Shown here in pieces: positions 7,937 through 11,499 of a stretch of DNA of 64,000 nucleotides (positions within the stretch are counted from its first letter, which is position 1; the number at the start of each line of letters is the position of its first letter). Origin of the DNA: Streptomyces tailanensis (GTDB lineage: Bacteria > Actinomycetota > Actinomycetes > Streptomycetales > Streptomycetaceae); contig NZ_VTHJ01000002.1 of NCBI RefSeq assembly GCF_008386495.1, positions 113,128 to 177,127 on the forward strand, in the 5' to 3' direction. The notes below the pieces were generated by a model that searched no databases, was not told the DNA's origin, and saw only the letters and a program-made list of their open reading frames with translations. The translations under genes were made by a program, and so were the position numbers.

Positions 7937-8208
7937 CGGCGTTGCGCGCCCTCCGCGCCGGGGGCCGGGGCAGGCACCCGGCGTGGGCGCGCATCGTGGC
8001 CGTCCGTCTGCCTCAGCCGGTGGTTTCCGCATCTCCAGGACGCGAAGACGCCCCGTTCACGCCGTGCCCGGCGCACCCCGGTACCTGCTTGGCTTGAACC
8101 TGCGCCGCGTGCCGCACAGCCGCTCGCGCCGCCTCACAGTCGCCGTTCCGGCGTCCATCGCCTCGGAATCCGCAACCGCGTTCTGATCCACCACCTCATG
8201 CGGTGGTG

Positions 8209-9485
8209 TCACGGCATTCCGACGGCGGGCGCGAGCTTTCCGAGAGGGATGTCCCGCAGACCGCGCAGCGGTGAGAAGAACAGCCACAGTCCCGCACAAC
8301 AGCCGCCTGCGACGGCGATCCACAGCGTGGTCCGGACGCCGAGGGTGGTGGCGAGCGCGCCGCCGACCAGACCGCCCAACGGCAGAGTGCCCAGGTGATC
8401 CAGCGGGCGGCGGCGCTGACCCGGCCGAGCATGTCCGGCGGGCAGGCGGCCTGGCGGTAACTGGTCAGCGAGACACCCGCGACGGTGGATGAGAAGGTCC
8501 ACGAGATCCAGCCGATGCCGAACAGCAGCACCCACCAGCCGGGCCCGGCCAGCGGGATGAGGAGTCCGGGCAGCGACAGCACGGTCATCGCGATCCAGCT
8601 GATCCGCGCCGAGCCGACCTTCCGGGCGAGGTACTGTGCCGCCACACCACCGGCCACCCCTCCGACGGCCCCCAGCGCCAGCAGCAGCCCGACCATGCCC
8701 GGCCGCAGGTGCAGGGTGCGGATGAGGAACAGCGGGCCGAGGGTCTCCACCATGATCACGAAGAAGTTGGCGGTGCCGTTGAAGGCCACCGAGTTGCGCA
8801 GGATGGGGTCGCGGGTCACGTAGGTGAGCCCCTCGCGGATCTGCGACCGCAGTGTGGGCCGTCGGTCGGGTTCGCTCCGCGGTCGGCGCGGCTCGCGGGT
8901 ACGGATCGCCGTCAGCGAGCCCGCTGACACCGCGAAGGAGAGCGCGTCGACCGTCATCGCCCCCGCGGGGCCGACCAGCGTCACCAGGCCCGCGCCCGCC
9001 CCGGGTCCGGCGATCTGTGCGACGGACTGCGAGGCGGCGAGCTTGCTGTTGCCGTCCATGAGTTGATCACGATCGAGCAGCACCGGCAGATAACTCTGGT
9101 ACGCCACCGTGAAGAACACGGACAGCACGCTGGAGACCGATGCCACGGCGTAGAGCTGAGCGAGCGTCAGTGCCTCGACGGCGTGGGCCAGCGGCACCGA
9201 GCCGATCACCAGGAGCAACGCGAGGTTGCACCAGATCATCAGCCGGCGCTTGGCGACCCGGTCCACGATCGCCCCGGTCGGCAGCGCGACGAGCAGATAC
9301 GCGCTGGTCTCCGCCGCGGCCAGCAGACCGACCTGGAACGCGGAGGCGTCCAGCAGCACGAGGGCGACCAACGGCAGTGCGAGAACGGTGACGTGGGAGC
9401 CCATCTCGCTGACCGTCTGGCCACCCCACAACAGCAGGAACTCCCGATGGCGCCAGACGGAGGAACGCTCACCTGCATCAACCAT
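8209..9485 (-). pseudogene. MFS transporter, frameshifted near its C-terminus
   Basis: An MFS permease with about 12 helices. It starts at the ATG at 9485 (MVDAGERSS...), followed by motif-A-like PTGAIVDRVAKRR. The protein reads correctly until ...AARWITW. The frame then breaks at the CCC run 8390-8392 on the plus strand. One added base would continue into GTLPLGGLVGGAL...LFFSPLRGLRDIP, a convincing last two helices that end at 8209. As written, the frame instead runs into a cysteine/arginine-rich non-membrane tail to 8196. This is either a true frameshift mutation or a one-base sequencing error. Substrate is unknown; the best guess is a drug or metabolite exporter. Confidence 0.75.
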
Positions 9486-9498
9486 CCGTCCGATGGTG

Positions 9499-9774
9499 TC
9501 ACCGGCCGCCTCTCCTGGCCAGACGACGACAGCTCCGCGCTGTCGCGAGCGCCCGATCCCCGCAGCCGCGCAACTGGCCGCGCGACATCTTGGCCCGCTG
9601 CCCGCCACCTGTGATCAGGGCGTTGACCGAGGCCATCGGGTCGCCGCCGGCCGTACGGGCCACCAGCGCCCCGACCACCAGGGGCAGCAGCGCCACCGCG
9701 AGGGCCGAACCGGTGGCGGTGGCCGTGGCGGTGACGTTTCGCAGGGGTCGGGGCCTCGTGGTCTGCGTCTTCAT
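9499..9774 (-). CDS. hypothetical small membrane protein or gene remnant
   Basis: 91 residues. A basic N-terminus (MKTQTTRPRPLRN) leads into one clear hydrophobic helix (~residues 20-41, ALAVALLPLVVGALVA). The C-terminal third is arginine-rich and looks non-native. The first ~57 residues read like the start of a larger membrane protein, so this may be the 5' stump of a deleted gene. No good Shine-Dalgarno sequence is seen. It lies between the frameshifted MFS gene and a foldback repeat, an area that appears to be decaying. I do not recognise a family. Confidence 0.35.
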   Translation of the reverse strand: MKTQTTRPRPLRNVTATATATGSALAVALLPLVVGALVARTAGGDPMASVNALITGGGQRAKMSRGQLRGCGDRALATARSCRRLARRGGR

Positions 9775-9857
9775 GATGACAGTCCATCAGCGGACCCGGG
9801 GCGGGGTATCGGACTACATACTCAGTCGATCCGTCCGGAGTACTCAGAGCACCGCCA

Positions 9858-10143
9858 CAGCGTCTCTGATCAGCTAAGCGATCCTATGCAAGACGTGGTG
9901 TCTGGCACGGGTCGTGTCCACCTGGGTGGGGTGGCGTGGGCGTGCAGGTGGAAGCCCACGCCCAGTGCCGCCCCTCTGGGCCGGTGTCGGCGGGTGGGGG
10001 GACCCCCATCCCGCCGACACCGGCCACAAGGGGCAGTACTGGGCGCGGGATTCAACCTCCACACCCATGTCACCCCGCCACGGTGGGAAACGATCCCTGA
10101 AACTCAATCCGACTCAGGATCGCTTAGCTGATTAGAGACGCTG
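9858..10143. repeat. 286-bp foldback (MITE-like) element
   Basis: Terminal inverted repeats of 28 bp, 9858-9885 and 10116-10143, match at 27 of 28 positions. The interior is also self-complementary: the left arm ~9905-10005 pairs imperfectly with ~10005-10105, so the whole element is one long hairpin. Because of this, conceptual translations of the two strands look alike (both contain GRCRRxGGPPxRRHRP). No transposase is encoded and no clear target duplication is seen. It lies in the gap between the decayed MFS region and the CebR-controlled gene. Confidence 0.75.
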
Positions 10144-10275
10144 AGGCCGACCGGGACTCGAACTCCACTCGAAGTGGGAGTGTCGCTGGTGGTGCGGGTG
10201 CGGGTGCGAATGAAGTAGCGCGTGAAAGATACCGAAAAGGTGATCGTTTCTTAAGAGCTCAACTTCCCTTTGGCG

Positions 10276-10304
10276 CAAGTGCGTTGGGTCCGTCGGCGCA
10301 CTTG
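10276..10304. promoter_or_regulatory. inverted repeat upstream of SGNH hydrolase promoter
   Basis: CAAGTGCG (10276-10283) and CGCACTTG (10297-10304) are a perfect 8-bp inverted repeat with a 13-nt spacer, directly abutting the predicted -35 element. It could be a second regulator site or a small hairpin; no T-run follows. Confidence 0.35.
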
Positions 10305-10306
10305 TC

Positions 10307-10336
10307 TTGACGCGTTAATGACAACAGTGGCATGTT
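10307..10336 (+). promoter_or_regulatory. promoter of the SGNH hydrolase gene
   Basis: TTGACG (10307-10312) and CATGTT (10331-10336) are separated by 18 bp. The CebR operator begins 4 nt after the -10, so bound CebR would overlap the transcription start. Confidence 0.5.
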
Positions 10337-10340
10337 CCGA

Positions 10341-10354
10341 TGGGAGCGCTCCCA
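10341..10354. promoter_or_regulatory. CebR operator (cello-oligosaccharide repressor box)
   Basis: TGGGAGCGCTCCCA is a perfect 14-bp palindrome identical to the published Streptomyces CebR box. CebR is a LacI-family repressor released by cellobiose/cellotriose. Its position just downstream of a predicted -10 and 23 bp before the start codon predicts cello-oligosaccharide-inducible expression of the secreted esterase. The downstream mannanase may be included. Confidence 0.85.
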
Positions 10355-10377
10355 TCTCACTCGGGGAAGGGAACATC

Positions 10378-11499
10378 ATGCACAGCACCGGACTCTCACG
10401 CTTACTGATCATTCCGTTTCTCGGCCTGCTGGCCGCTCTGCTCGCGCCCTTGACTCTCGCGTCGCCCGCCGCAGCCGCGCCGAGGGCGGTGGATACGGCG
10501 GCGGACCCGGTGCGCGTCATGCCGCTGGGCGACTCGATCACCGGCTCGCCCGGCTGCTGGCGGGCCGCGCTGTGGAACCAGTTGCAGAACGCCGGTTACA
10601 CGAACATCGACTTCGTCGGCACCCTCGGCCCCCAGGGCTGCGGGGTGGCGCACGACGGCGACAACGAGGGGCACGGCGGCGAGTTGGTGACCAATGTGGC
10701 CGACCAGGACCTGCTGCCCGGGCGGCTCGCCGCGACGCTTCCGGACATCGTTGTCATGCACTTCGGTACGAACGATGTGTGGAGCAGCATCGCCCCCGAC
10801 CGCATCCTCGCCGCCTACACCAAGCTGGTTGGGCAGATGCGGGCCTCCAACCCGGACATGCGGATCCTCGTCGCGCAGATCATCCCGATGAACCCCAGCA
10901 GTTGTGCGGGCTGCGCGCAGCGTGTCGTGGACTTCAACGCGCGGATCCCGGACTGGGCCCGGGCGACGTCCACGAGCCGCTCGCCGGTGACTGTCGTCGA
11001 CCAGTGGACGGGATTCAGTACGGCCACGGACACGTACGACGGGGTGCATCCGAACGCCTCCGGGGACGACAAGATCGCCGCGCGCTGGTATCCGGCACTG
11101 AGCGCGACGCTGGACGCGGGGATTCCGGAGGATCCGGACGACCCCGGTGACCCCGACGACCCCGGTGAGGGCGAGCCTTCCTGCACGGCTGCCTTCCGGG
11201 CCGTGAACGTCTGGCAGGGCGGTTACCAGGGTGAGGTGACCGTGACCAACACGTCCGCCTCTTCCGTCTCGGGCTGGACCGTGACCGTCGTACCGGCCGA
11301 CGGCGCGCGGCTCACCCAGGTCTGGAACGGCACGCTCGGTTCAGCGTCCGACGGCACCACCACTGTCTCCAACGCCGGCTGGAACGGCACCCTCGCACCC
11401 GGTGCGAGCGCCGCGTTCGGCTTCGTCGCCACCACTTCGTCGACGGCCGGGACGCCGTCGGTAACTGTCGGCTGCACGGCGCGGGCCGCCACCTCCTGA
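10378..11499 (+). CDS. secreted SGNH/GDSL hydrolase with CBM2 module
   Basis: 373 residues. A Sec signal peptide (hydrophobic core, cleavage near ASPAAAAPRA, ~residue 36) precedes an SGNH hydrolase domain (~residues 45-245) of the carbohydrate acetyl-esterase (CE3-like) type. It has GDSITGS with the nucleophile Ser (~52), block III GTNDVW (~122) and DGVHPNASG with the Asp-His pair (~221-224). An acidic Asp-Pro-Gly linker leads to a cellulose-binding CBM2 (~268-373) with paired cysteines. The start at 10378 gives the signal peptide and follows GGGAAGGGAA. With the CebR box, a plant cell-wall deacetylase role is inferred. The actual ester substrate is unknown. Confidence 0.87.
   Translation: MHSTGLSRLLIIPFLGLLAALLAPLTLASPAAAAPRAVDTAADPVRVMPLGDSITGSPGCWRAALWNQLQNAGYTNIDFVGTLGPQGCGVAHDGDNEGHGGELVTNVADQDLLPGRLAATLPDIVVMHFGTNDVWSSIAPDRILAAYTKLVGQMRASNPDMRILVAQIIPMNPSSCAGCAQRVVDFNARIPDWARATSTSRSPVTVVDQWTGFSTATDTYDGVHPNASGDDKIAARWYPALSATLDAGIPEDPDDPGDPDDPGEGEPSCTAAFRAVNVWQGGYQGEVTVTNTSASSVSGWTVTVVPADGARLTQVWNGTLGSASDGTTTVSNAGWNGTLAPGASAAFGFVATTSSTAGTPSVTVGCTARAATS

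Follow-up and report, generated by a model that had tools for sequence, protein, structure and literature searches.

The 284-bp imperfect palindrome at positions 9859–10142 of the window (the whole 64,000-nt stretch of Streptomyces tailanensis DNA analysed here, contig NZ_VTHJ01000002.1) is very probably a deletion scar, in which the right ends (REs) of two inverted TnpB transposons were left head to head. There is good evidence for this origin, while the mechanism proposed for it is a likely one and the evidence does not point to any present function, i.e. it seems to be a scar and nothing more.

The palindrome and its surroundings

The initial annotation had described one long 286-bp hairpin at 9858–10143, and this hairpin is real, apart from one base on either side: the transposon-derived part is 9859–10142, and the flanks begin with 9858 and 10143. 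Read by eye, the outermost 28 bp pair at 27 of 28 positions, and the complementarity indeed continues through the interior, with inverted repeats of 32 nt at 9854–9885/10116–10147 (94%) and of 84 nt in the inner arms at 9918–10001/10003–10086 (80%). Overall, the left and right arms are 77% identical over 145 alignment columns. As RNA, the 286 nt are predicted to fold into a single hairpin of −222.7 kcal/mol, compared to a mean of −123.0 (sd 5.8) for shuffled sequences (z −17.3; 0 of 200 shuffles equally stable), which agrees with the earlier expectation of a strongly folded RNA if the region is transcribed. The open reading frames that run through the element on both strands are the expected product of a GC-rich palindrome. 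In an Rfam search of the window every match stayed under its gathering score, the matches being hairpin look-alikes.

The palindrome sits between an MFS-type gene (minus strand, ORF 8196–9608, PF07690) and a GDSL-hydrolase/CBM2 gene (plus strand, ORF 10270–11499). A very stable hairpin between two genes that are both transcribed away from it could in principle be a structured DNA or RNA element kept for another role, e.g. as an insulator or terminator in front of the GDSL-hydrolase/CBM2 gene. This is very unlikely, however, as a close relative (genome G350) lacks the palindrome at this place, and as the origin of the palindrome by itself explains its structure. Also upstream of the GDSL-hydrolase/CBM2 gene, at window positions 10341–10354, is a perfect 14-bp palindrome, TGGGAGCGCTCCCA, of which this is the sole exact copy in the window and which resembles the CebR operator of Streptomyces cellulase genes.

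Two right ends from two TnpB elements

The full elements to which the arms are related are ~2.2 kb long and have a single long ORF, encoded on the strand ending at the arm, the product of which matches PF07282 (Cas12f1-like_TNB; 36.1 bits vs a cut-off of 26.3) and falls under the cut-off for the NCBIfam model guided_TnpB (36.2 vs 100). Since the arms match the sequence shared by these full elements, and since the ORF is that of a TnpB, each arm is, as judged by homology, the RE of a tnpB-only, IS200/IS605-like element with the tip GATCAGAGACGCT. Members of IS200/IS605 that carry tnpB only are called IS1341-like. The parent family is frequent in the same genus and resembles the IS200/IS605 type in that the tnpB gene ends at the RE, and in that insertion occurs directly 3' of a short fixed motif, with no target duplication and with a variable base after the RE. 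A Y1 (HUH) transposase TnpA is not apparent among the ORFs of L034, nor is TnpA encoded in the full elements examined. L034 and L035 are REs in the S. tailanensis genome itself, and the elements they belong to show homology over 2 kb.

The left arm (9859–9997, minus strand) is RE1, recognised as a truncated right end by its homology to the REs of full elements; its tip is at 9859, GGCGGGTGG ends at 9997, and its tnpB would have lain rightward, on the minus strand. The right arm (10006–10142, plus strand) is RE2, the truncated right end of a second, different element, homologous to L007, with its tip at 10142 and a tnpB that would have lain leftward, on the plus strand. At the junction lies GGGGACCCCCAT (9998–10009), half of a small dispersed hairpin repeat that is found in other loci and forms part of the right arm. 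The lack of a transposase, already noted in the initial annotation, is borne out. The 28-bp terminal repeats are two copies of the right tip that is conserved among the TnpB elements, whose left end has a different sequence.

The left arm is closest to L005 (92% over 144 columns), and the right arm to L007 (86% over 139 columns, or 90% over the 125 nt that BLAST aligned). A tree of 33 arm sequences unites the left arm with L005 (support 98/83) and the right one with L007 (99/87), and forcing the two window arms into one clade costs 30.7 log-likelihood units (p-AU 0.0007). On this phylogeny, the arms stem from two different parent elements. Fold-back duplication of one element was considered as well and is ruled out by the tree, where the arms are in separate clades.

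Two insertion sites in a close relative

In G350 the left flank of the palindrome is found at 90–95% identity and the right one at 91%, separated by 10.4 kb, and nothing in the locus matches the palindrome or the element of L034. At the left boundary (in element orientation), G350 has AGGCT followed by the sequence that follows RE1 in the window, i.e. the counterpart of 9839–9858 (minus strand), where the RE1 guide would be read. On the other side, the 15 bases after RE2, GAGGCCGACCGGGAC (10143–10157, plus strand; the start of the would-be RE2 guide), are found in G350 within a subtilase gene, directly after AGGCT. This match is only 15 nt long because it is ended by a second deletion at 10157/10158 (~1.94 kb relative to G350), which removed most of the remaining subtilase gene. 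Counting both strands, the 10.4-kb G350 region contains only 13 copies of AGGCT, and 2 of 2000 mononucleotide shuffles produced AGGCT together with 10 of the 15 right-flank bases. In G350 the two AGGCT sites, which are free of any element, point in opposite directions at a distance of 8,406 bp. A search for an empty site had been proposed in the initial annotation, and what it uncovers are two separate insertion sites, not one.

A left end was recognised by script in 9 of the 15 fetched loci (eight starting with AGGCT, one with AGGCC), with a pattern that favours AGGCT-like ends and leaves five of the 15 without a recognised left end; by eye, the left end of L035 reads CAGCT. Because AGGCT is present at both G350 sites and at nearly all of these recognised left ends, it is likely to be the insertion motif and TAM of the family. 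G248 has AGACT, not AGGCT, at the right site. Among 28 REs, all four letters occur as the base after the RE.

Misassembly through repeats was rejected, as the nearest REs in the own genome share 85% and 82% identity with the left arm and 77% with the right one, and as both flanks are syntenic in G350. The right flank also has the look of a tRNA 3' end, which was checked by a pattern search that led to the subtilase gene instead.

Putative guide-RNA features of the right ends

In ISDra2, as described in PMC8612924, the guide RNA of TnpB is derived from the 3' end of tnpB and the RE, while its last ~16 nt come from the flanking DNA. In 10 full elements of the present family, third-position divergence drops from 0.24–0.49 in the coding body to ~0.14–0.15 at 340–70 nt from the tip, and the last 70 nt before the tip vary strongly. 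The predicted fold of the L034 RE (z −6.4; no match in Rfam) has GATCAGC, at 153–159 nt from the tip, paired with GCTGATC in the tip. GATCAGC is exact in 25 of the 31 loci, always farther from the tip than the window arms extend; in L032 and L033 the GATCAGC/GCTGATC pairing is kept via changes on both sides, and L006, L007, L009 and L011 have, by eye, about one mismatch in this closing helix. With RNAalifold, both-side changes were found in 4 of 53 pairs (28 REs, leaving out the truncated loci L014, L025 and L030). For a hand-set terminal hairpin in 25 ungapped rows (leaving out, for length or subfamily, L005, L007, L009, L024, L026, L027, L030 and the right window arm), 74.5% of the cells are paired, which was reached by 22 of 500 shuffles, and the covariation score was reached by 23 of 500; this covariation is weak and only suggestive. 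The structure and conservation of the RE would fit a role of the RE transcript as TnpB guide RNA. In nine of the ten full elements (e.g. L034 512–2494) the tnpB frame continues without a stop until no more than 18 nt before the RE tip, and the gene therefore overlaps the presumed guide-RNA region.

The arms themselves are probably dead as guide RNAs, since the palindrome lacks GATCAGC, the predicted partner that closes the helix of the RE RNA; its right tip reads GCTGATT instead of GCTGATC, and guide activity of the arms seems unlikely. A case can be made for a retained two-headed guide cassette, with the guide RNAs of both arms directing a TnpB made elsewhere against insert-less alleles at both sites: the tips and ~140 nt of each RE have been retained, the arm length is near that of the ISDra2 reRNA (~150 nt, of which ~16 nt are guide; PMC8612924), and L034 and L035 are present as potential partners with homology over 2 kb. 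Still, this is highly improbable, not just for lack of GATCAGC and an intact right tip, but also because RE conservation reaches ~340 nt from the tip (of which the arms hold less than half), because a through-transcript would fold into one long hairpin, and because the right-hand target was destroyed by the second deletion. A broader idea, that TnpB insertions in inverted pairs would often be reduced to minimal two-headed RE cassettes, which would then serve as tnpB-less guide modules policing two neighbouring empty sites in trans, is very unlikely too.

Copies and relatives

In its own genome the entire palindrome occurs once, in addition to two loci that match single arms. With the best two candidates per genome considered, matches at E ≤ 0.001 were obtained in at least 71 of 392 same-genus genomes, where the weaker ones may be chance, and at E ≤ 1e-10 in at least 49 of those 71 (own count of the matches listed). 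Among the matches listed for these 392 genomes, again the best two per genome, there is no second palindrome with both halves, and a scan of genome contigs, from which the own genome is possibly absent, gave no exact-motif pair of similar size. Two plasmid records have a match, both from Streptomyces, and no plasmid record covers 80% of the query. In all 31 other loci fetched (L002–L033, leaving out the duplicate L004), both palindrome halves match one single place. The element sequence is shared beyond the arm for more than 1.4 kb in 24 of the 31 (including L002, which is the query itself), and seven (L008, L014, L018, L023, L025, L030 and L032) are truncated or rearranged. The relatives that the initial annotation had proposed to look for exist in abundance for each arm in the same genus, and not for the palindrome as a whole, which is single copy among the matches listed; its own counterargument, a single-copy sequence with no relatives and no expression, thus applies only in part. 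Likewise, elements with matching ends exist on one side, in that the tnpB elements share the right tip, while their left end is a different sequence.

MITEs and palindrome-associated elements related to IS200/IS605 are short, non-autonomous and palindromic. That the palindrome is such a foldback or MITE element, mobilised in trans as a unit via its 28-bp terminal repeats, is suggested by its small size, the near-perfect match of these repeats and the tnpB-bearing relatives in its own genome, but is extremely unlikely, given one complete copy among the matches listed (own genome and 392 relatives) instead of several, flanks that represent two distant sites in G350 instead of a precise single empty site, arms from two clades, and two right ends where a MITE would match both ends of its autonomous partner, the ends of the parent element here being different from each other. 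What remains of the mobile-element interpretation is that the palindrome was derived from mobile elements, very probably without moving as a unit.

Several further observations concern RE sequences elsewhere. Four of the 31 loci (L008, L014, L018 and L030) are RE-only remnants of 219–351 nt, beyond which nothing in the ~1.5 kb fetched matches the L002 element. Six more loci in the own genome (L099–L104) have an RE tip at one mismatch (five AGCCGATCAGAGACGCT, one AGCTGGTCAGAGACGCT), apparently belonging to a sister subfamily of TnpB elements. In G108, inverted RE copies lie ~40 kb inward of either end of a contig of 11.3 Mb (G108:C1:40605-40745 and 11287072-11287212), which is consistent with chromosomal terminal inverted repeats. 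The RE-tip motif search covered 295 genomes, and as chance matches are mixed in among the matches listed, it does not settle the frequency of inverted RE pairs.

Proposed formation of the scar

The deletion scar could have arisen as follows. Two different members of one tnpB-only, IS200/IS605-like family would have inserted beside AGGCT motifs, inverted and with their right ends outward, after which only the outermost ~140 bp of each would have survived, with the two tnpB genes, the two left ends and the intervening host DNA lost and RE1 and RE2 left head to head. In G350 terms, 8.4 kb is missing between the RE pieces, which in that genome encodes XdhC, molybdopterin-dehydrogenase subunits and a TetR regulator and includes the 3' portion of the subtilase gene. 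How far apart the sites originally were is uncertain, and some of the 'lost' DNA could instead have been gained by G350, because the middle segment is shorter by ~6.7 kb in G248, which also has the deviating motif at the right site. The presence of xdh-like relatives elsewhere in the own genome (the best being 81–86% at C96:237227-239496) is a further caveat. One exact-motif scan of other genomes, for the RE2 junction, gave no intermediate in which an element is still intact at one of the sites.

A GGCGGG(A)TGG motif marks both breaks, which lie 139 and 137 nt inward of the tips, and the right arm includes a few bases of a dispersed GGGGGTCCCCCC-type repeat, which L003 and L028 carry at exactly this point and L019 and L083 (about 2380–2410) at other places. 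Because the two breaks coincide in element position and adjoin a G-rich hairpin repeat, it seems most likely that the inverted elements paired into a stem, across which a polymerase jumped or a nuclease trimmed, although this is judged from one case. The small hairpin repeat itself (GGGGGTCCCCCC...GGGGGAG) is found inside some REs, is half-present at the palindrome centre, and occurs at many places in the own genome.

Comparison with known systems

Like the IS200/IS605 TnpB elements described in PMC8612924 (ISDra2), the parent elements have a TnpB-type gene with its 3' side at the RE and insert directly 3' of a short motif, AGGCT here and TTGAT in ISDra2. Unlike such elements, the window locus consists of two truncated REs only, lacking tnpB and left end, and both TAM and guide activity are putative. 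Elements of the IS607 family also combine TnpB with a right-end RNA, but according to PMC10711439 the base after the RE is fixed there by dinucleotide recombination and is variable in IS200/IS605, as it is among the present REs. Deletions between long inverted repeats, in which the intervening DNA is lost and a palindromic remnant is left, have been reported (e.g. PMC4319165); the outcome is similar here, except that the repeats are two diverged transposons. Among the papers listed in a literature search at the level of titles and abstract openings, none describes a head-to-head fusion of TnpB right ends in that part of its text. In resemblance to the IS200/IS605-related MITEs the palindrome is short and non-autonomous, the difference being that it is not a repeated mobile unit.

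What appeared to be a foldback element can thus be read as a deletion event, both ancestral insertion sites of which are still readable in a relative. For a TnpB family that is frequent in the genus, this leads to the testable prediction that AGGCT is the TAM and that the guide would begin right after GAGACGCT, and it shows that paired TnpB insertions can accompany the loss of neighbouring host genes.
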